In this document: positions 31,679 to 42,929 of the stretch, piece after piece
How positions within the stretch are numbered: position 1 is the first letter of the stretch
Layout of the letters: the number at the start of each line of letters is the position of its first letter
NCBI RefSeq assembly: GCF_001701045.1
Contig: NZ_CP016757.1
Location: 62,001 to 126,000 of the forward strand
Direction: 5' to 3'
DNA: 64,000 bases
Source of the DNA: Cloacibacillus porcorum
Lineage (GTDB): Bacteria > Synergistota > Synergistia > Synergistales > Synergistaceae
Notes under the pieces: model-generated
Database searches by the model: none
What the model was told of the DNA's origin: nothing
What the model saw: the letters and a program-made list of their open reading frames with translations, nothing else
Position numbers and translations under genes: made by a program

Positions 31679-31709
31679 ATATCGGCGGCGTCTCTTACGC
31701 CGCCGATAT
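31679..31709. terminator. Bidirectional terminator between the PucR-type and GGDEF genes
   Basis: A perfect 13-bp stem, ATATCGGCGGCGT (31679-31691) with ACGCCGCCGATAT (31697-31709), loop CTCTT, with TTT on the plus side. It overlaps the last codons and stop of the minus-strand GGDEF gene, so it is fixed in both roles. Confidence 0.8.
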
Positions 31710-33827
31710 TTTGCCTTTGCCTGATTTTTTCGCGGCGTACAGGGCGGAGTCGGCCGCTCTGTAGAGGTCGTTGAATGTTCTGCCGTCCTCCGGGCAGAGG
31801 GAGATGCCGATCGAGCAGGAGGAGGGGGCTCTGCCGCCGATGTCTTTGATGAAAGAAGCTTTCAGCGCCTCCGCTAGGGCCAGTACCTCCTGATATGATT
31901 TTATCCTGGGGAGAAACGCCGCGAACTCGTCGCCGCCCATGCGGCAGAGCAGGTTATCCGTGCCGAATACCTCGCGCATCTTTGCGGCGAAGAGGATCAG
32001 CACATGGTCTCCGTAGAGATGGCCCAGGGTGTCGTTGATCATTTTGAAGTCGTCGAGGTCGATCATCAGGAACGCGGCTTCGTGATTTTCCTCTGCTCCG
32101 AGCCGCGCGGAGACCTCCGATTCAAAATAGGATCTGTTATAGAGGCCGGTCATGGTATCTCTCTGGGATGCCTGCTCTGCCCGCTGGACCTCAATGTTCT
32201 TGCGGCGGTTGTTTCTTATGATCACATAAATGGCCAGCACCGATACGATGACGGCGACAGATATTCCCGCCACGCTGAGGGAGATCATCGGGTAGCGCAT
32301 GATGATCTCGCCCGCGGACATCGTATGGCGGGTGACCATCGTATTTACCGCGATTATGGCGCTGGTCTTGTTTTTACCGATGGCAGAGATGCCCTTGTCA
32401 AGCACCGACATCAGCAGCATTTCCTGCCGCCCTCCATGCGGAAGGGACAGAGATAGCCCGTGCGAGTAGTTGATTACCGAGGCGTAGAGGTTTTTGTATT
32501 TGTAGTTTTGGAGATATGTTCCCGCGACGTAGGAGTTGACGAAACAGATATCCGCTTCGCCGTTTCGGACGGCGTCGACACACTCCTCTTCGCTGTTGTA
32601 CCAGGCTATCTCTTCTTCACGGTAATTTTTCTGGACATAGTTCTGCGAGAATAGGTAGCCCTTTACGGCGGCAGCCTTGGGGTTGCCGCTGTTCTGTATG
32701 TAATCTATGCGGGTGATCGCCGCATAGTCAAGATCAAGGTACGGGCGGGAGAGCAGCAGCCCGTTCTTTTCCGCCCAGCCATAGTCGTAATAGATATTGG
32801 AAAGTATGTCGGCGCTCCCCGTGCTGACCATCTTGACCGCCTCAAGCTGGTTTAGGGCCTCGATATATTCAAAACGCACGCCCAGCTTGGCCTCAAGTTC
32901 TTTCAGGATATCGATGGCGATGCCCCGGTACTCGCCGTTCTCCTTATACATCATCGGTTTTCGGAAGGAGGGCAGGGTGACGCGAAGCGTGGGTGTTTCC
33001 TTTAGAAAACGCGCCTCCTCTTCCGTGAACGCGAGGATTATGCCGTCGCTGTCTTCGAGATATTTTTTCTCCAGCTGGGCCTTAAAATCGGGTTTGAAGC
33101 GGCGGATCTGTTCCATGGCAAAGATAAGGGCGTTTTTCATATCTCCGCCGCCGAGCCGTGTGACGAAATAGCGCTTACTGGGGGCGAACTGGGCGATTAT
33201 TTTAGTGTTTGAGGGAATTATATCCGCCTCTCCCATAAGGATCGCGTCGACATCGCCGCCTTTCAGCGCCCTCTCCAGCTCGTCGATGCTTTTGTAATCG
33301 GCGGTGGTAAACAGGATGCCTCTCTCCGCGGCGTAATCGTGTAGTTTGTACAGGTGGTTTTTCCAGACGGGGATCACGCCTATCCGCATGCCGTCAAAGC
33401 CTTCCCAGCCGTCCATCGTGTAGCGCCCGTCTTTGGCGTTCACCGCGAGGATCGTGTATGTCTCGTCAGTCTCGTACTTTACGAAATCGAAGCTGCGGGC
33501 TGCCGTCTCGGTGTAAAAGAGGCCGCCGACGACGTCGACCAGGCCCTCCTGCAGCATTTTCAGGCACTCTTCACGGCTTCCGCTCACATATTCATAACGC
33601 CAGCCGCCATATCTGGCCATTTCCTGAAGGTATTCATATTCATAGCCGCGCCGGTAGCCGTTGGGATCCATCTCCTGAAAATTTTTATTTTTATACCAGC
33701 CGACCCTTATCACCTTTGGCAGTGAAGTTTTCGACATCTCCTCAGCAAAAACTGCGCCGGCCGCCGCCAGGAAGATTAGGACGCAAAAAATCATTATGAC
33801 CATACGATCTGTCTTTTTAAGAGCCAT
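31695..33827 (-). CDS. Diguanylate cyclase with two periplasmic SBP_bac_3 sensor domains
   Basis: 710 residues. A signal/anchor helix (VIMIFCVLIFLAAAGAVFA) is followed by two amino-acid-binding-protein-like domains (about 40-270 and 280-510, the second starting near TLRVTLPSFRKP), a membrane helix (MISLSVAGISVAVIVSVLAI), and a C-terminal GGDEF domain with LIDLDDFKMINDTLGHLYGD and an intact MGGDEF active site. No clear RxxD inhibitory site precedes it. The protein should make cyclic-di-GMP in response to an amino acid or similar ligand outside the membrane. ATG 33827 is set by GGAGG 10 bases upstream. The 296 bases upstream are AT-rich and show no gene. Confidence 0.93.
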   Translation of the reverse strand: MALKKTDRMVIMIFCVLIFLAAAGAVFAEEMSKTSLPKVIRVGWYKNKNFQEMDPNGYRRGYEYEYLQEMARYGGWRYEYVSGSREECLKMLQEGLVDVVGGLFYTETAARSFDFVKYETDETYTILAVNAKDGRYTMDGWEGFDGMRIGVIPVWKNHLYKLHDYAAERGILFTTADYKSIDELERALKGGDVDAILMGEADIIPSNTKIIAQFAPSKRYFVTRLGGGDMKNALIFAMEQIRRFKPDFKAQLEKKYLEDSDGIILAFTEEEARFLKETPTLRVTLPSFRKPMMYKENGEYRGIAIDILKELEAKLGVRFEYIEALNQLEAVKMVSTGSADILSNIYYDYGWAEKNGLLLSRPYLDLDYAAITRIDYIQNSGNPKAAAVKGYLFSQNYVQKNYREEEIAWYNSEEECVDAVRNGEADICFVNSYVAGTYLQNYKYKNLYASVINYSHGLSLSLPHGGRQEMLLMSVLDKGISAIGKNKTSAIIAVNTMVTRHTMSAGEIIMRYPMISLSVAGISVAVIVSVLAIYVIIRNNRRKNIEVQRAEQASQRDTMTGLYNRSYFESEVSARLGAEENHEAAFLMIDLDDFKMINDTLGHLYGDHVLILFAAKMREVFGTDNLLCRMGGDEFAAFLPRIKSYQEVLALAEALKASFIKDIGGRAPSSCSIGISLCPEDGRTFNDLYRAADSALYAAKKSGKGKISAA

Positions 33828-34102
33828 ATATGTACTACCTCCGTTATACACGCCAGAACGATGGTGCTTATATTTAACCCGCGGTCAACAAATCAGCGTT
33901 AACCCAAGCCGGCAATATCTGTATTTTACAATAAATTTGTAAATATATGTGTGCAGATATCTGCTAAGCGATTTTATCATCGCCGCCAATAAAAGATACC
34001 GGGAAAAGCACGTATATGATGCCGTCCAAGATCAAAATAATTCTATTTAATAATATCGCGCATAGTGGATGGCTGTCGGGCTGCCGGTGGCGGCTGGTTT
34101 GC

Positions 34103-34123: not shown

Positions 34124-35248
34124 CTATCCCTCCTGCTTTGCCAGGTAGCCGCCGAGAGCCTTTAGCCCCTCCGTCAGCAGCTGCCGGTCGCCGAAGCCGT
34201 AGCCGAGGCGGAAGGATTTTTCCTCTTCAAAGCAGCCGCCGTGGCATAGCAGCACGCCCGTCTCTTTGTAGAGGCCGTCGCAGAGGGGCAGCGCCGCGAT
34301 GTCGTAGTCGTAGTGCACGAGCATTGTCGTCGTGAGGCTTTCACCGTATACGGAGAGTCGCGGCTGTTCCGCGAGCCACTCGTCGACGATTTTTTTATGC
34401 GGGCGGACGATGCCGCGCGCCCGGGCGAGCATTTTTTCGTTATTTTCCAGCGCGATGGCGGCGATGAGTTCGTCAAAGACGCCGTTGCAGATCGTATCGT
34501 AGGAGCGGCGGTTTTCAAGGATGTCATAGGCCTCCGGCTCTCTGACGATCGCCCAGCCGACTCTGGTGCCGGCCATCGAGTAGACCTTGGACATGCTGCC
34601 GGTGGCGATCCCCTTTTCGTAGAGGTCTACGATCGAGGGCATGTATTCGTCGGCGAGGCCGCGGTATATTTCGTCGCAGAGTATGTAGGCGCCGTTTTGC
34701 CGCGCGATCTCGACGACGGGCGCGAGTTCGTCCGCGTCCATGTAGGCTCCGGTGGGGTTGTTGGGGTTTGTCAGCGTGATGAGTTTGGTCTTTTTATCAA
34801 CAAGCTTCGTCAGCCGCCCCGGGTTGATTTTGTAGCCCTCCTCTTTTTTGAGGTGCAGCAGCCGCACTTCGCTGCCGAGCGCTTCGGGGATGGCATAGTG
34901 CTGCTGGTAGTTGGGCGTGACGGCGACGACGTTGTCGCCGGTCTCAAGCATGCCGGTGATGACGGTGGAGTTCGCGCCGGTGCCGCCGTGCATGGTGAGC
35001 ACCATCGCGGCGGAGGCCTCCCTGCAGGTGGCGGCGATCGCCTCTTTCAGACGCGGCAGGCCGAAGAAGGCGCCGTAATGGAGGTGCGTTTCAAAAAAGT
35101 GTCTGTTGAGCTCTTCTCTGTCTTCGCCGCTCAGTTCAAGGAGCTCGTCAAGGGATATCGCCTTGACGCAGCTCGCGCCGAGGTTGTATTTGCAGTCCGC
35201 GTCGCGTGGGTTGAGCCATTTTTCAACTTTGAAATCTTTGATCCTCAT
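34124..35248 (-). CDS. Class I/II PLP-dependent aminotransferase
   Basis: 374 residues. PLP-fold landmarks: GGTGANSTVITGML (phosphate turn), TNPNNPTGAYM, LCDEIYRG (Asp to the pyridine nitrogen), the Schiff-base lysine K221 in GSMSKVYSMAGTRVGW, and a C-terminal arginine in FRLGYGFG for the substrate carboxylate. Likely transaminates or beta-eliminates an amino acid; specificity not readable. Ribosome site GGAGGAG precedes ATG 35248. Stands alone between a terminator at 35338 and the palindrome at 34103. Confidence 0.92.
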   Translation of the reverse strand: MRIKDFKVEKWLNPRDADCKYNLGASCVKAISLDELLELSGEDREELNRHFFETHLHYGAFFGLPRLKEAIAATCREASAAMVLTMHGGTGANSTVITGMLETGDNVVAVTPNYQQHYAIPEALGSEVRLLHLKKEEGYKINPGRLTKLVDKKTKLITLTNPNNPTGAYMDADELAPVVEIARQNGAYILCDEIYRGLADEYMPSIVDLYEKGIATGSMSKVYSMAGTRVGWAIVREPEAYDILENRRSYDTICNGVFDELIAAIALENNEKMLARARGIVRPHKKIVDEWLAEQPRLSVYGESLTTTMLVHYDYDIAALPLCDGLYKETGVLLCHGGCFEEEKSFRLGYGFGDRQLLTEGLKALGGYLAKQEG

Positions 35249-35412: not shown

Positions 35413-37164
35413 TCAGTCTGTCTCTCCCATGTCCTTATCGATGATTACGCCGCGGTTGCTCTCGCCGTCCATGTAGGCGGCAAAGCTGCCGCGGTAGACG
35501 CGTATCGCGGGGTTGTCACACCAGGGCTCCCATTTTTTGCTCTCGAACCAGTCGGCGTTGAAGATGTTGCGGTCCTCTCCAGCGAAGACTGGCATGTAGA
35601 GGACGCCGTCGACTTCGAGGTCGGAGAAGAAGTGCGTGCCGTAGGAGAGTTCCGGCATGAAGCCGAGGCGCGGGATGCCGAGCTCCACCATGCCGCGGCA
35701 GTTCGTCAGCTCGCTGTACTGCACGGGAACGCCGAGCTCCGGATTGCTGGAGCCGATGCGTCCCGGGGCGACGAGGATGTAGGGCTCGCCGTCGGAGGCT
35801 TTGTTGAGTTCGCCGATGAGCCGCGCTGTCCCGTAGAAGTCACGCTGCGCGTAGTAGCGGTTAAAATCGACGTAGACGATCTTGGTTATCTGCGGGATCG
35901 CGCCGTGGGTCACCATGCGGTCGGCCTGCAGCAGGATCTGGCGCTGCGAGAGTTCGGGAATACCTCCCTCAAGGTGGTTGTTCGACCAGAAGGGGCGCGA
36001 CTGGATGAGGCAGAAGGAGTCCTCCGTCGGCTCGAAGGCGAATTCAATGTCGGCCGGGACGCCCATCTTGTTCTCAAGCAGCTTCAGCGTCTTTTTGACG
36101 CGCTTGTAAAAGTCGGGGTAGATGCGGGGGAAGCTGTCGAAGGTGAAGCAGACCTTTGTCCCCGGCGAGAGGGAGGCCATGTTCTTCATGATCTGGAAGA
36201 AACAGCCCTCACCGTCGTCGCAGCGGTAGATCTGCGCGTAGGCGGCGAAGTCGGGATGGTAGGTAAGCAGCTGTTTCCACTCTTTTTTGATGTCTAACGT
36301 AGTTATCTGGTTGGGGCGTTCCTCGTCGATGACGTGAAATGATTCCTGGGCGATAGCCGAGATCTTCTCCGGCGAGAAACCCTCGGGACGCAGTATCGGA
36401 TTGGTCAGCGAGACGGTGCGCGCGTAACCGCGCTTGGTGCTCATGGTGCCCATGCCGAAGACCATGCGCACGAGGCCGTCGTCCTGCTTCACGCGCGTCG
36501 TCCAGCGGCGGAAGTTCTGCGAATATCCGACGCCGGCCATCGTCGGATAGTAGTAGCGCCCTCGCCAGCGTCCCGCCATGCGGATGATGATGATCCCCAT
36601 GTCGTCGCCTCCGAGGTGGTGGCGTTCCCGATAATCGGCCGCGGCCGGGAAGAAGGTGCGCGAATAGATGCGCCGTACCTCGTTTTCCACGGCGACGGAC
36701 CGCTCCTCAAGGCCGCCGCAGTTGTTGCTGAGGAAGTTTGTCAGGTATTTTCCGGCGAAGGAGTGTTTTACGTCGTCCTCCAGCCGGCTGGAGCTGCGGA
36801 TGACGACGGGGTCGCGCATATCCGCAAGGAAGGTGCGGATGTACATGCCGGCCGCCTGCGGCAGCGGCGTTTCAAGAAAGACCCGCTCGATCTCCTGTGG
36901 GTCGTTGTTTGCGAGCAGCGTGTCGAGGTGAGGTACCCGCTCGAGAAACTGATGGAATATCTCGATGCTGAGGTAGATTGACCGCGGCACCTTCGTCCTG
37001 CTCATCTGTTCGTCGCCGCTGTCGCGCAGCTGCCGCAGCGCGAAGAGCAGCGAACGTCCCTTTCCCCCTATAGTGCCGCGCCCGCAGATCAGCGGTGCGA
37101 ACTCAGGATCGTCATGCGGCTGCCATTCAAAGTAGAGTTCTCTTGCTCGGTCTGCAGAGGTCAT
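35413..37164 (-). CDS. PEP-synthase/PPDK N-terminal-domain-like protein, second copy
   Basis: 583 residues. The first 250 residues resemble the ATP-grasp nucleotide-binding part of PEP synthase and pyruvate phosphate dikinase: GGKGRSLL, VIRSSSRLEDD, FAGKYLTNF. The swivelling phospho-histidine domain and the PEP/pyruvate barrel are absent. Instead the C-terminal third has a conserved block (ILVAPGRIGSSNPELGVPVQ, LSYGTHFFSDLE) shared with the gene upstream. It cannot be a complete PEP synthase. It may be an ATP-dependent kinase or regulator; function unknown. Only 4 bases separate it from the copy at 37169. Confidence 0.82.
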   Translation of the reverse strand: MTSADRARELYFEWQPHDDPEFAPLICGRGTIGGKGRSLLFALRQLRDSGDEQMSRTKVPRSIYLSIEIFHQFLERVPHLDTLLANNDPQEIERVFLETPLPQAAGMYIRTFLADMRDPVVIRSSSRLEDDVKHSFAGKYLTNFLSNNCGGLEERSVAVENEVRRIYSRTFFPAAADYRERHHLGGDDMGIIIIRMAGRWRGRYYYPTMAGVGYSQNFRRWTTRVKQDDGLVRMVFGMGTMSTKRGYARTVSLTNPILRPEGFSPEKISAIAQESFHVIDEERPNQITTLDIKKEWKQLLTYHPDFAAYAQIYRCDDGEGCFFQIMKNMASLSPGTKVCFTFDSFPRIYPDFYKRVKKTLKLLENKMGVPADIEFAFEPTEDSFCLIQSRPFWSNNHLEGGIPELSQRQILLQADRMVTHGAIPQITKIVYVDFNRYYAQRDFYGTARLIGELNKASDGEPYILVAPGRIGSSNPELGVPVQYSELTNCRGMVELGIPRLGFMPELSYGTHFFSDLEVDGVLYMPVFAGEDRNIFNADWFESKKWEPWCDNPAIRVYRGSFAAYMDGESNRGVIIDKDMGETD

Positions 37165-37168
37165 ATTA

Positions 37169-38896
37169 TCACTTGCCTTCCGGGGTTTTGTCGATAACGA
37201 TTCCGGTCTCCGAGTCTCCGTCGAGCAGCACGTCGAAGCATCCCTCGTAGTGTCTTACGGCGGGGTGGGATATCGTCTGCCACGGATGACTCTCGAACCA
37301 TTCTCTGTTATATATGTTATTCTTTTCGCCGTCAAATACCGGCAGATAGAGGATGTTGTCCCCGTCCAGGTCGAGGAAAAAGTGCGTCCCATAGGAGAGC
37401 TCGGGAGCCATCCCCTTCTGCGGTATGCCCAGCTCCACGAGGCAGCCGGAGTTTGACAGCTCGTTGTAGCGCACCGGCACGCCGAGCAGCGGGTTCGAGC
37501 TGCCCCAGCGTCCGGGGCCGACGAGGATGTAGCGCTCGCCGTCGAGCCGGTCGTTTATCTCTCCCACGGCGCGCGCGACGTCGGCGAAGTCCGCCTGCTT
37601 GCCGTATATTTCAGGGTCTACAAAGACGATGTGTCTGACGCCCTCCAGCCTGCCGTTGGCGACCATGCGGTCGCCGCGCAGGATGGTCTTTTCACGCGGC
37701 GTATCGGGGATCTCCACGCGCCCTTTGTCGTCGTAGACGGAGAGCGGCCGCAGCTGCACGAGGGTGAAGCGGTCGTCGCTGACCTCGTAGGCGAACTCCA
37801 TGTCCACGGGGAGCTGAAGCTCCTTTTCAAAGAGCGAAAGAAGCTTCTTGAGCCGCGTGAAGAGCTTCGGGCAGCGGCCCGGCAGCTCGGAGAAGGTGAA
37901 TACCGGACGCGGTACGTTCATATTGCTTGGGTCGGTGTGTATCCAGTGGAAGGCGTTGTCGTCGAACCACTGCAGATAGGTGGGCGCCATCTTGTGTTTT
38001 TTCAGGATATCCTTGATGGTGACGGCGATATGCTGCGAGGTAAACTTGCGGTGCTCCGTATCAACGTAGTCGTAGTGCTCCTGTGAATGCGTCACAATTT
38101 CGTGGGGTTTCGTCCCCTCTGGGCGGAGGTTGGGGTTTGTGAGGTAAAAGGTCCTCGCATAGGCCCTGTCGACGGTACGGGTGCCAAGACCGAAGCAGAT
38201 CCTCACGACGCCGTCCTCTTTCCTGATGCGCGGCGAGGGGCGGCGGAAGACCTTCGAGAAGGCCGCGCCCGCAAGCTCCGGGTAAAACATGTTCCCGTAC
38301 CGGCGGCCCTCGATGGGCTGGATGAGCACGGCCATGCGCTCTCCGCCCCACTGTATGCCGTGTTTGCGCTTATATTCGCGCGCCGCGGGGTTATAGGTGG
38401 AGGCGTAGACGGTCTTTATCGCGCTTTCGAGCTCCGCGCGGCGCTCCCCGCGCGTTCCGGCATTGGAGGAAAAGCGCGTCGCGTACTTTCCCGCGAAGGA
38501 GAGGTTGACGTCGTCCTCAAGCGTCGAGGAGGAGCGCACGGAGATGGGATCCTCTATAAGGTCAAGTATCTTTTCAAGAGGTTCGTCGAGCGACGGCGGC
38601 AGGTGGGCCGCCGCGCAGATCTTGTACAGCTCGGGGGCATCCGAATGCGCGCGCAGATTCATCAGCCGCTCCCAGAGGTTGTTGTACTCCATGAATTCGT
38701 CGAAGACCGAAGTCGTGATGACGAAGGAATATTTGGGCAGATGCACGTCCTCCAGCAGACCGTTCTTTTCAAGGATATGGTGCGCGAAGGAGAGTCCCTT
38801 TGACTTCCCTCCGATACGTCCGTCGCCGATGAGCCATCCGCGCTCCTCATAAAAGGGGACAGGGTCGAAGCTCCTATAAAAATCACCGTAATTCAT
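37169..38896 (-). CDS. PEP-synthase/PPDK N-terminal-domain-like protein, first copy
   Basis: 575 residues from ATG 38896 (GGAGGG upstream). Same build as its downstream neighbour: GGKSKGLSF, ISVRSSSTLEDDV, FAGKYATRF in the ATP-grasp part and ILVGPGRWGSSNPLLGVPVR with LSYGTHFFLDLD in the C-terminal part, with no phospho-histidine or barrel domain. The two share layout and motifs over their whole length but are clearly diverged, so the duplication is old. Tandem retention suggests they form a hetero-complex or act on different partners. The gene is divergent from ppk1. Confidence 0.82.
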   Translation of the reverse strand: MNYGDFYRSFDPVPFYEERGWLIGDGRIGGKSKGLSFAHHILEKNGLLEDVHLPKYSFVITTSVFDEFMEYNNLWERLMNLRAHSDAPELYKICAAAHLPPSLDEPLEKILDLIEDPISVRSSSTLEDDVNLSFAGKYATRFSSNAGTRGERRAELESAIKTVYASTYNPAAREYKRKHGIQWGGERMAVLIQPIEGRRYGNMFYPELAGAAFSKVFRRPSPRIRKEDGVVRICFGLGTRTVDRAYARTFYLTNPNLRPEGTKPHEIVTHSQEHYDYVDTEHRKFTSQHIAVTIKDILKKHKMAPTYLQWFDDNAFHWIHTDPSNMNVPRPVFTFSELPGRCPKLFTRLKKLLSLFEKELQLPVDMEFAYEVSDDRFTLVQLRPLSVYDDKGRVEIPDTPREKTILRGDRMVANGRLEGVRHIVFVDPEIYGKQADFADVARAVGEINDRLDGERYILVGPGRWGSSNPLLGVPVRYNELSNSGCLVELGIPQKGMAPELSYGTHFFLDLDGDNILYLPVFDGEKNNIYNREWFESHPWQTISHPAVRHYEGCFDVLLDGDSETGIVIDKTPEGK

Positions 38897-39157
38897 AACG
38901 TCCCTCCTAACAGGTTCCATCCAATTCGATGACTAAAAATTCTATCATTATAACTAATTATTATAGACTATATTTTCGTCTCTTTAAAGCAGAAATTTAA
39001 TATGATGAATTGTATTTTCTGCGCAAAATTGCGTAAGTTACAGAGGTGTAACGATATTTTAACGTTTTTTTTACTATGCACTTTGCGGCGGGGTTTAAGA
39101 TAATAACGGTGATAAGATGTGTCAAGTAAGAGGCTCCAAACGGAGGATGATTTTACG

Positions 39158-41218
39158 ATGATTATGAATAACCGGGAACTGAGCTGGCTGGTATTCAACG
39201 ACCGCGTGCTGCAGGAGGCGCAGGATAGGAGCGTGCCGCTGATGCAGCGGCTCAAGTTCCTCGGCATTTTTTCAAACAACCAGGATGAATTTTTAAAGGT
39301 GCGCGTCGCGAAGCTGATCCGCCTGAGCCGCATGAAGGGGCTCAAGGGGGCGCAGGCCGCCAAGGCGCGTGCCGCGGCGGAGGTGCTGCCGCAGCTCTAC
39401 GCGCGTATGTCCGAGTCGCAGGAAAAATTTGACGAGATCTATTACGGCATCCTCTCCGAGATGGCGGCGATCGGGATAAACGTGGTGAACGAACGGCAGC
39501 TTACGGAGGAACAGGAACGGTTCTGCGTCGACTATTACTCCTCCGTCGTCAGCGAGCGTATTGTGCCGCTGCTGATCCGCAAAGCGACGAAGCTCCCCTT
39601 TATCAGCGACGGCGATATCTACCTCGGCGTCAAAATGACGGGGGCCAAAGCCAAGAACGTGCGTTACGCCTTTATCCAGATCCCCGTCAGCAGCGCCTGC
39701 CCGCGTTTCGTCGAACTGCCGTCGGCGGAGGGACGCCGGGACATAATCTTTCTCGACGATATTATCCGCCTCTGTCTGCGGGAGATATTTTTCATGTTCA
39801 GCTGCGAGACGGTCAGCGCCCATACCTTCCGTATTGTGCGCGACGCGCAGATCGAGATGGACGGCGACATCTCCAAGAGCCTGATGGAGAAGATGGAGGA
39901 GGGCATTGAGAACCGGTACCGCGGCAAACCTGTGCGGCTCATCTATGACAGGGAGATGCCGGAAGATTTGCTCTCGCTGATCGTCTCCAAGCTCTCGCTG
40001 AAGGCGGGTCCCTCGCTCGACCCGGGCGGGCGCTACCACCTAAAGCGCGACCTGATGAAGTTCCCGCGCGTCTGCCCGCAGCTGGAGGAGAAGCTGCCCG
40101 CGCCGATGCGCAACCTGGCGATCGCCCCCTTCTCCAGTATTCTGAAGGTCGTGGCGAAGCGCGACGTGATGCTCCATTTTCCATACCATACATTCAACCA
40201 TGTGATAGACTTCCTGCGCGAGGCGGCAATCGATCCCAAGGTGGAGAATATCTTTATCACCCTCTACCGGACGGCGGAACATTCAAAGGTGATCAACGCC
40301 CTCATAGGAGCGGCTAAAAACGGTAAGAGCGTCACCGTCATCATGGAGTTCCTCGCGCGTTTCGACGAGGGACAGAACATCGAATACGCCGACATTCTCC
40401 AGCGCGCCGGCGTGCGCGTAATCGACGGCGTGGCGGGGCTGAAGGTACACTGCAAGCTGATCCTCGTCGAGCGCCGCGAACGTACCGGCCTCAAGGGTTA
40501 TGCCTATATCGGCACCGGAAACTTCAACGAATCGACGGCGAAGATTTACTCCGACTTCGGCCTGCTCACCTGCCGCCGCGAGATCGTCTGTGAGACGCGC
40601 TCCGTCTTCGATTCCGTCACCGCGCACCAGCCGCTCGCCTGCCGGCATCTTCTCGTTGCGCCATATAACATGCGCGCGCGCTTCGAGGCGCTTGTGGAAG
40701 AGGAGATCAAACATGCCAAGAGAGGCAAGAAGGCCTATATCAAGGCGAAATTCAACAGCCTTACCGACCCCGAGATGATAAATCTGCTGTACAAGGCGAG
40801 CCGCGCCGGCGTTAAGATAAGCCTCATCGTGAGGGGCGCCTGCTGTCTCCAGCCGGGAGTCGAAGGGCTCAGTGAAAACATCCGGGTGATAAGCATCATC
40901 GACATCTACCTCGAACACGCGCGGATGGCCATCTTCTGCGGCGGCGGCGAGGAAAAAATATTCATCCTCAGCGCTGACTGGATGACGCGCAACCTTAACC
41001 GCCGCATCGAGGTCGGCACGCCGATTTATGATCCCGCCATCCGCAGGCAGCTGAAAAAGGTATTTGAAATGCAGTGGAACGATAACGTCAAGGCCCGGGA
41101 TATGGCGGTATTCGGGGCCAATGAATACGTGGCCGGCGGCGAGGGAAAGCGGTGCCGTTCGCAGCTGGCGCTCCATGAATTCTACAAAAAGGCCGCTGAA
41201 AAGAGGAATGAAGAATAA
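39158..41218 (+). CDS. ppk1: Polyphosphate kinase 1
   Basis: 686 residues, normal PPK1 length. It reversibly moves the terminal phosphate of ATP onto long-chain polyphosphate. N-terminal NNRELSWLVFNDRVLQEA is the family signature; the first HKD-like site with autophosphorylated histidine H431 is in VHCKLILVERRE, the second region near EHARMAIFCGGG; GTGNFNESTAKIYSDFGLL is also present. ATG 39158 has GGAGG 11 bases upstream; the GTG at 39119 lacks a site. Its stop overlaps the ATG of ppx/gppA (TAATG). Confidence 0.96.
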   Translation: MIMNNRELSWLVFNDRVLQEAQDRSVPLMQRLKFLGIFSNNQDEFLKVRVAKLIRLSRMKGLKGAQAAKARAAAEVLPQLYARMSESQEKFDEIYYGILSEMAAIGINVVNERQLTEEQERFCVDYYSSVVSERIVPLLIRKATKLPFISDGDIYLGVKMTGAKAKNVRYAFIQIPVSSACPRFVELPSAEGRRDIIFLDDIIRLCLREIFFMFSCETVSAHTFRIVRDAQIEMDGDISKSLMEKMEEGIENRYRGKPVRLIYDREMPEDLLSLIVSKLSLKAGPSLDPGGRYHLKRDLMKFPRVCPQLEEKLPAPMRNLAIAPFSSILKVVAKRDVMLHFPYHTFNHVIDFLREAAIDPKVENIFITLYRTAEHSKVINALIGAAKNGKSVTVIMEFLARFDEGQNIEYADILQRAGVRVIDGVAGLKVHCKLILVERRERTGLKGYAYIGTGNFNESTAKIYSDFGLLTCRREIVCETRSVFDSVTAHQPLACRHLLVAPYNMRARFEALVEEEIKHAKRGKKAYIKAKFNSLTDPEMINLLYKASRAGVKISLIVRGACCLQPGVEGLSENIRVISIIDIYLEHARMAIFCGGGEEKIFILSADWMTRNLNRRIEVGTPIYDPAIRRQLKKVFEMQWNDNVKARDMAVFGANEYVAGGEGKRCRSQLALHEFYKKAAEKRNEE

Positions 41219-42111
41219 TGAGAGATATGAACACGATCGCGGCGCTGGATATCGGCAGCAACGCCGTCCGTTTTCTGATCTGCAGCATAGAGGAATCCAG
41301 CGACACGAAAAAATGCCGTAAAGTCGCCTTTCTCCGCGTGCCGGTGCGTCTCGGGGAGGACGTCTTCACCGAGGGCGAGATAAGCGCGCGCCGGAGAATG
41401 CTGCTCTGCGAGGCGATGCAGGGCTTTTCCCATCTGATGAAGACCTTCGGCGTGAGCGAATACCGCGCCTGCGCCACCAGCTCGATGCGCGAGGCAAAAA
41501 ACGGCGCCGAAGTTCTCGACGAGATCAGGGAAAAGAGCGGCATCCAGGTCGAGGTAATATCGGGGCTGGAAGAGGCCGAGATAATATACGCGGCGGGCGT
41601 CTCTTCCGCCGGCAGTGAAAATTGGAAAGACTCCCTCCACGTCGACGTCGGCGGCGGCAGCACGGAGGTCGTTATCTACGCCGGCGGCCGCGTCGCCGAA
41701 TCGCGCTCATTCCGGCTCGGGACGGTGCGCATCCTGAAAGACGCGGTCGAAAAGGGGGACAAAGAGCTCTTTAAAAAAGAGCTGAAAAAAATCGGGGAAA
41801 AATACCGCGGCCTGCGCATCATCGGCTCTGGCGGCAACATAAATAAGGCGCAGAAGCTGCTCAACAAACGGGTTGGCGAGCCGATAAGCGCCGTCGAGCT
41901 GAGGATGCTCTACGACACGCTGAAGAAGATGACCTTTGAAGAGAGGATCAACAACTTCAAGCTCAATCCCTACCGCGCCGACGTCATCATCCCCGCGCTG
42001 AAAATATTCCTCCTCGTCAGCAAACTTTGCTGCGCGCCGACGATCATCGTGCCGCAGGTAGGGCTGGTGGACGGGATCATCGCCATGCTCCACGCGAAAA
42101 TGTCCTCATAG
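41218..42111 (+). CDS. Ppx/GppA exopolyphosphatase
   Basis: 297 residues, the short form carrying only the two ASKHA domains. Phosphate-binding motifs: LDIGSNAVRF, DVGGGSTEV (phosphate 2) and RLGTVRI, with the catalytic glutamate region in CATSSMREAKN. It degrades polyphosphate or pppGpp. Coupled to ppk1 by a TAATG overlap, a common make-and-break pair. The last native gene before the foreign island: acquired sequence begins right behind its stop codon. Confidence 0.93.
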   Translation: MRDMNTIAALDIGSNAVRFLICSIEESSDTKKCRKVAFLRVPVRLGEDVFTEGEISARRRMLLCEAMQGFSHLMKTFGVSEYRACATSSMREAKNGAEVLDEIREKSGIQVEVISGLEEAEIIYAAGVSSAGSENWKDSLHVDVGGGSTEVVIYAGGRVAESRSFRLGTVRILKDAVEKGDKELFKKELKKIGEKYRGLRIIGSGGNINKAQKLLNKRVGEPISAVELRMLYDTLKKMTFEERINNFKLNPYRADVIIPALKIFLLVSKLCCAPTIIVPQVGLVDGIIAMLHAKMSS

Positions 42112-42305: not shown

Positions 42306-42929
42306 ATGACATTTGAGAAAATTGATAGGGACACATGGGTACGAAAAGAATATTTTGAACATTATTTCTCAAATATTCCCTGTACTTATAGCATGACTGT
42401 TAGGTTAGATATTACACAGATAGTGAAGCAACAGGTAAAATTATATCCAGCTATGCTTTACTATCTTACGACTGTTGTAAACCGTCATTCTGAGTTTAGA
42501 ACTGCTTTCAATGAGAACAATGAATTGGGTATTTATAGTGAAATGATACCTTGCTATACAGTTTTTCATAAAGACACCGAAGCATTTTCTAATATCTGGA
42601 CGAACTACACGCCGAATTTTGAAGAATTTTGTAATGCTTATGAGAATGATATATTACAGTACGTAAATGAAAAAGGAATGACAGCAAAGCCAAATGTTCC
42701 CAGCAATTACTTCAATGTTTCAATGATACCGTGGGCAACATTTGAGGGCTTTAACTTGAACTTGCAGAAAGGATATGATTATTTGAAGCCTATTTTTACA
42801 ATAGGGAAATATTATCAAGAAACTGGACGAACTCTAATTCCTTTGGCAACTCAAGTTCATCATGCTGTATGTGATGGATTTCATGTTTGCCGTTTAATAG
42901 ACGAATTGCAGGAATTGATAAATAATTAA
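42306..42929 (+). CDS. cat: Chloramphenicol O-acetyltransferase, CatP-like type A
   Basis: 207 residues, full length. Matches the clostridial/Campylobacter CatP group: IDRDTWVRKEYFEHYF start, MIPWATFEGFNLNL and the catalytic HHAVCDGFHVCR near the C-terminus. It acetylates chloramphenicol using acetyl-CoA. Ribosome site AAGGAG is 8 bases before ATG 42306. GC content is far below the surrounding genes. Length and active-site residues suggest a working resistance gene, but no clear promoter was identified, so expression may depend on read-through from ppk1-ppx. Confidence 0.95.
   Translation: MTFEKIDRDTWVRKEYFEHYFSNIPCTYSMTVRLDITQIVKQQVKLYPAMLYYLTTVVNRHSEFRTAFNENNELGIYSEMIPCYTVFHKDTEAFSNIWTNYTPNFEEFCNAYENDILQYVNEKGMTAKPNVPSNYFNVSMIPWATFEGFNLNLQKGYDYLKPIFTIGKYYQETGRTLIPLATQVHHAVCDGFHVCRLIDELQELINN

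Follow-up and report, generated by a model that had tools for sequence, protein, structure and literature searches.

What do two adjacent PEP-synthase-like genes do if neither of their products carries a PEP/pyruvate domain? We asked this of a gene pair, A and B, on the 3.59 Mb chromosome of Cloacibacillus porcorum (Synergistota), within a stretch of 64,000 nucleotides that was analysed as a whole (the window). The original prediction described two proteins of 575 and 583 residues whose genes are separated by 4 bases, and both genes are present on the minus strand: gene A at 37169..38896 (575 aa) and its paralogue, gene B, at 35413..37164 (583 aa). The gap that separates the stop of A from the start of B (37165..37168, minus strand) was read directly from the sequence. 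Based on ORF calling and Pfam, and for A also on AlphaFold (AF2), the two share one architecture, an N-terminal ATP-grasp domain (PPDK_N) followed by a C-terminal swivel-like block. The ORF caller places A at 37169-38920 (583 aa), and an internal ATG at 38896 gives the 575 aa form. Since an AGGAGG ribosome-binding site, likewise read from the sequence, lies just upstream of this ATG (38903..38908, minus strand), and since the alignment of most close relatives of A begins at residue 8-9 of the 583-aa ORF, the ATG at 38896 is the better start. Unless another numbering is given, residues are numbered as in alignment A2, which lacks the initiator Met of the 583-aa A ORF.

A and B are 41% identical over 559 aligned columns (402 bits, BLASTP), and their alignment bears out the claim of a common C-terminal block containing the motifs PGRxGSSNP and LSYGTHFF. 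PPDK_N (PF01326) is the sole Pfam domain in A and B (98 and 138 bits; cut-off 27). As predicted, the PEP/pyruvate domain is gone: the Pfam scan detected no PEP/pyruvate TIM barrel in either protein, and both stop right after the block. Elsewhere the genome encodes a complete PPDK (878 aa, G000:C1:1501795-1504431), so A and B are not the PEP-forming enzyme of the cell. Databases label members of this family 'phosphoenolpyruvate synthase' or 'PEP/pyruvate-binding', names that are misleading given the missing PEP domain.

The ATP-grasp domains keep the ATP-site residues

The ATP-grasp domain found by Pfam spans residues ~35-410 of A in the numbering of the 583-aa ORF (37691..38818, minus strand) and residues ~31-395 of B (35980..37074, minus strand). 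In PPDK, K22, R92, D321, E323, Q335 and R337 act in catalysis. Both proteins retain equivalents of all six, at A2 positions 38, 128, 372, 374, 388 and 390, so that the PPDK_N matches and the ATP-site residues agree with the prediction that ATP-grasp motifs survive in both proteins. These residues were placed by profile alignment to PEP synthase (hhalign E 8.9e-18); at full length this alignment is reliable through the ATP-grasp domain only, and it leaves the His unplaced. Across the family, the equivalents of K22, R92, E323, Q335 and R337 are conserved in 93-96 of 96 alignment rows, and the D321 equivalent is D or E. The RSSSxLED motif formed part of one of the two search patterns with which relatives were collected, and its conservation thus stems partly from selection.

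The C-terminal block resembles a swivel domain in predicted structure

The block occupies 37172..37726 in A and, as located by sequence searches, 35416..35973 in B (both minus strand), and A and B are its only carriers in the genome. A search of the 50 genomes surveyed returned 98 copies, all in frames of ATP-grasp size except one partial match of 114 aa, and no free-standing block protein was seen in that search. Profile searches with the block alone had been suggested as a way to identify it, and at the level of sequence they gave no match; the resemblance to a phosphocarrier emerges only in predicted structure. Genome-wide, PEP-utilizers (PF00391) matched neither A nor B, the only matches being the PPDK and one protein in a 630-aa open frame, probably PTS enzyme I. 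Comparison of the block by hhalign with the His domains of PPDK, PEPS and pyruvate kinase yielded no sequence signal (PEP-utilizers E 0.15), a PDB profile search returned chance matches only, and Foldseek with the block alone found nothing at E < 0.001. The block also drew weak matches with longin-type proteins and with arginine dihydrolase AgrE (E 0.02-0.1); these were inconsistent between runs and were discarded as chance.

The AlphaFold models are of high confidence, both for A (m8105d04c179d; pLDDT 92.4, pTM 0.92) and for its block modeled alone (pLDDT 93.8). VIA-align matches the full A model, across its two domains, with PEP synthase 2ols (Z 25.2, 358 residues, model residues 15-578) and with PPDK 1dik (Z 18.9, 350 residues). 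For the block alone, the best 12 VIA-align rows are all (12/12) phospho-His swivel domains, at Z 5.8-7.2, a range in which, according to the tool's own note, a Z of about 7 can be reached by unrelated folds. These alignments cover 104-120 residues at 2.9-3.7 Å, and the matched structures include RPH 756-867, the C-terminal domain of pyruvate kinase, the central domain of PPDK and the isolated PPDK domain solved by NMR (2fm4). In the prediction, for which the Foldseek search was non-significant, the swivel-like fold directly follows the ATP-grasp domain.

These models strongly suggest that the block is a divergent phospho-His swivel domain, probably by homology. The moderate Z and the lack of a Foldseek match keep this a strong suggestion short of proof, and a swivel is the best reading because the top rows all belong to one superfamily and because domain order and His position agree. 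The original claim that A and B had replaced the swivelling His domain is therefore probably wrong, given the confident model of the block, the 12 swivel domains among its best rows and its conserved His.

One histidine is invariant across the family

The candidate phospho-acceptor His falls within the GTHFF motif of each protein. Its codon in A, located from a 96-row alignment and the AF2 models, is at 37382..37384 (minus strand), corresponding to residue 513 of the 583-aa ORF, 505 of the 575-aa form and 512 in A2; in B, alignments place it at 35632..35634 (minus strand, residue 511). All 96 rows, drawn from bacteria and archaea, have His in column 512, the sole column with more than 50% His across the 580-residue family. 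H512 is the first helix residue after the fourth main strand (helix H115-122 in the block model), which would correspond to the place of the catalytic His in PPDK, the start of the helix behind the fourth strand. The match between H512 and PPDK H455 comes from the order of secondary structure elements alone. We infer that H512 may be phosphorylated and treat it as a candidate site.

The surroundings of this His differ from those of canonical swivel domains. The commonest letters are S-[YFQ]-G-[TS]-H-F-F, compared to the canonical GGxT[S/C]HAA, and the 96-row alignment contains no GGxT[S/C]H signature around the conserved His. Other positions of the block are also invariant: R470, G472, G479, E495, S508, G510 and F513. 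The block is a distinct subtype under its own constraints. A known phosphotransfer domain in the block had been expected to turn A and B into ordinary dikinases; the predicted fold is indeed that of a phosphocarrier, but A and B are not ordinary dikinases since both the canonical signature and an acceptor domain are missing.

The same residues could be read in another way, with the block as a distinct domain that resembles a swivel without being a phosphocarrier and has an Arg/Glu/Ser/His site of its own, A and B then being ATP-grasp ligases or ATP-driven sensors. R470, G472, E495, S508 and G510 match H512 in their invariance, which is not the case in ordinary swivel domains, and the empty sequence comparison, the non-significant Foldseek search and the missing GGxTSH all fit such a domain. 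We nonetheless consider it unlikely, because the best structural rows fall into a single superfamily, with the domains in the same order behind the same ATP-grasp, and because the only invariant His heads the equivalent helix.

A and B are gained and lost together

The two genes had been described as old, adjacent copies. Consistent with this description, A and B form two separate clades in the tree, and orthologues of each are found throughout the Synergistales, A as a rule preceding B. Clear calls were obtained for 58 Synergistales genomes: both an A- and a B-type gene are present in 40, neither in 15 and just one of them in 3; these are raw counts of phylogenetically correlated presence and absence. 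In several genomes (G003, G006, G023) both genes are kept though far apart, and some Synergistales families lack both. We infer from this joint gain and loss that A and B probably act together. The proposed two-subunit machine fits this co-inheritance.

Absence of the pair from 15 of the 58 genomes might alternatively indicate that one or both proteins are inactive relics or pseudo-enzymes, adjacent by chance. This seems extremely improbable: both A and B have intact ATP-site residues and an intact His, the paralogues are 41% identical, with each orthologue group maintained in several families of the order, and the genes are jointly present or jointly absent rather than decaying singly.

Members of the family occur in 18 or more bacterial and archaeal phyla; they are present in many anaerobes, gut Bacteroidota and archaea, often as 2-3 tandem paralogues. 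More than one copy was present in 23 of 80 loci across phyla. The multi-copy loci of other phyla fall into different clades of the tree, so that pairing has recurred within the family. An apparent 1175-aa 'B' fusion in locus L061 contains a single PPDK_N and was rejected as an overlapping open frame. A scan of IMG/VR with the family alignment confirmed no relatives, and the PADLOC anti-phage defence models gave no match for A or B. A homologue was also noted on two unannotated faecal scaffolds labeled 'Bacteriophage sp.', whose phage origin is unverified.

Family members cluster with glutamate dehydrogenase genes

Genome context associates the family with glutamate dehydrogenase (GDH). Two independent genome-wide profile searches, one for the block and one for GDH, were run over 50 genomes that had been picked for their similarity to A and without regard to GDH, and that are phylogenetically non-independent. 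Of 90 GDH genes, 42 are no more than 5 kb from a block, compared to 0.59 expected under random placement, which is about 70 times the chance level, and this proximity was seen in 28 of the 50 genomes. Across the 80 loci, some of which end at contig edges, GDH is within 3 kb of a family member in 34, representing at least 14 named phyla, and forms the largest cluster of non-self neighbours (45 genes, 33 loci).

A second clade of the family is found near genes for glutamate synthase and glutamine amidotransferase (L074, L093, L112, L117 and L122), and genes for asparagine handling are also among the neighbours. A calcineurin-like phosphoesterase is encoded near a family member in 11 of the 80 loci. 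Larger relatives carry extra domains, with a nucleotidyltransferase in 11, a receiver in 7 and DUF5752 in 6 of 46. No aromatic-degradation genes were identified among the scanned neighbours.

In the genome of the window, a clear GDH match lies ~200 kb from A and B, around the origin if the chromosome is circular, and direct linkage in the sampled Synergistales is limited to two families (f7 and f8) and three further loci (L062, L063 and L067). Given this distance, any link of A and B to GDH is by way of their family. Their immediate neighbours, on the plus strand and divergent from the pair, are instead the polyphosphate kinase gene ppk1 (39119..41218) and, as identified by sequence searches, the exopolyphosphatase gene ppx (41218..42111), and the pair might conceivably serve polyphosphate metabolism with them. 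However, ppk1 and ppx adjoin A in only three sampled genera, that of the window and two others, and were not found beside the pair in the remaining sampled genera; the neighbour that recurs across phyla is GDH. Because the ppk-ppx neighbourhood is so confined, we rank a polyphosphate role low and regard it as very unlikely.

We tentatively propose that the physiological setting of the family, as suggested by genome context in at least 14 phyla, is glutamate and ammonia metabolism centred on GDH, the model as a whole having slightly less than an even chance of being correct. It is a guess that the A and B studied here share the process served by their GDH-adjacent relatives.

A possible route of phosphotransfer

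As a working model, in which we place not quite even confidence, A and B would be co-inherited two-domain phosphotransferases of the PEP-synthase/PPDK superfamily that pass a phosphoryl group from ATP through a phospho-His to an external acceptor and work in glutamate metabolism; the chemistry is deduced from the predicted domains. ATP would be held by the ATP-grasp domain, from which a phosphoryl group could move to the invariant His of the C-terminal swivel. With no acceptor domain within A or B, the swivel would hand this group to an acceptor outside, be it the partner subunit, a separate protein or a freely bound metabolite, and any choice among these is guesswork.

The most likely role of such a transfer would be reversible control of GDH or its pathway, and the calcineurin-like phosphatase near some relatives could act as an eraser. 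Together with the add-on domains of the relatives, this nearby phosphatase leads us to favour regulation over simple catalysis. More speculatively, and on balance improbably, the family may constitute a pan-prokaryotic system of one to three ATP-grasp/swivel paralogues, some carrying a receiver or nucleotidyltransferase part, that controls GDH or glutamate synthesis covalently and reversibly. Such a system would be a counterpart to the control of glutamine synthetase by GlnD and GlnE, with A and B as its compact Synergistota version, a parallel that we consider equally doubtful.

The most serious rival to this proposal is a pair of small-molecule dikinases similar to RPH or to HpeHI and PpsAB, phosphorylating a metabolite that is perhaps an amino-acid or 2-oxoacid intermediate. 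Among solved structures, RPH, PEPS and HpeI come closest, HpeHI provides a two-component precedent in the same superfamily (PMC12167813), and neighbours such as GDH, glutamate synthase and asparagine-handling genes would suit a pathway enzyme equally well. Against this, the 575-583 aa forms lack any counterpart to the substrate-binding domain of RPH or HpeH, and the receiver, nucleotidyltransferase and DUF5752 parts of the larger relatives look regulatory. On this evidence we judge a small-molecule dikinase somewhat unlikely, though deserving of weight, and prefer the working model above.

In the open-licence literature we found no studies of the family's activity, its hidden swivel domain or its linkage to GDH; the domain superfamily is already known, and the family itself is apparently unstudied. 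For such a family, the GDH neighbourhood offers a concrete hypothesis of function, and if GDH were the target, the family would represent a widespread control point where carbon and nitrogen metabolism meet.

Comparison with known dikinases

A and B resemble PEP synthase (PpsA) and PPDK in their ATP-grasp domain, whose ATP-site residues are the same, and, in predicted structure, in a block that aligns to the swivel. They differ in lacking the PEP/pyruvate TIM barrel and the GGxT[S/C]HAA signature and in being about two thirds as long. RPH is the best structural match to the ATP-grasp domain (Z 25.5), and its His domain is also the top match of the block (Z 7.2), whereas in A and B the block follows the ATP-grasp without an intervening rifampin-binding domain and carries a different His signature.

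Like the two-component aromatic dikinases HpeHI, PpsAB and CreHI, the pair is encoded by two genes, belongs to the same superfamily and combines the parts for ATP-grasp and swivel chemistry. HpeHI has been shown experimentally to be a two-component dikinase of the PEP-synthase/PPDK superfamily, for which the swivel His is essential (PMC12167813). In these systems, however, the ATP-grasp and swivel reside on different subunits, while A and B each combine an ATP-grasp with a swivel-like part; the acceptor domain of HpeH has no equivalent in A or B. The same architecture, block and invariant His are found in a Parabacteroides protein annotated as 'PEP/pyruvate-binding domain-containing protein' (WP_041525632.1), whose gene adjoins gdhA. 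This Bacteroidota form is ~985 aa long with an N-terminal receiver-like region, in contrast to the Synergistota A and B, which are short and paired.

Genes adjoining the family in other genomes

Among the sampled loci of relatives of the tandem paralogues A and B, a gene for a PP-loop ATPase of ~250 aa lies immediately upstream of an A- or B-type gene in the Synergistota loci L061, L045, L053, L056 and L068, and overlaps it in some of them. Directly upstream of the A-type genes in four other Synergistota loci (L062, L063, L055 and L057) is a gene for a class II tRNA synthetase of the Asp/Lys/Asn type, probably AsnRS. At L101 (407-11184), three tandem family paralogues of 576, 1056 and 1009 aa, in that order, are preceded by one glutamate dehydrogenase gene and followed by a second, of a different type.

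Genes surrounding A, B and ppk-ppx

The next gene after the polyphosphate pair ppk-ppx is a chromosomal type A chloramphenicol O-acetyltransferase gene (42306-42929, + strand), whose product scores 307.8 bits with the NCBIfam model NF000491 (cut-off 270). On the far side of B are genes on the - strand for a diguanylate cyclase that carries two periplasmic sensor domains of the SBP_bac_3 type (31695-33851) and, downstream of and beside B, a PLP aminotransferase (34124-35248). The latter gene, which is not kept at that place in the sister genome (L038), encodes a protein resembling PRK07324 and also guanitoxin and capreomycidine enzymes.
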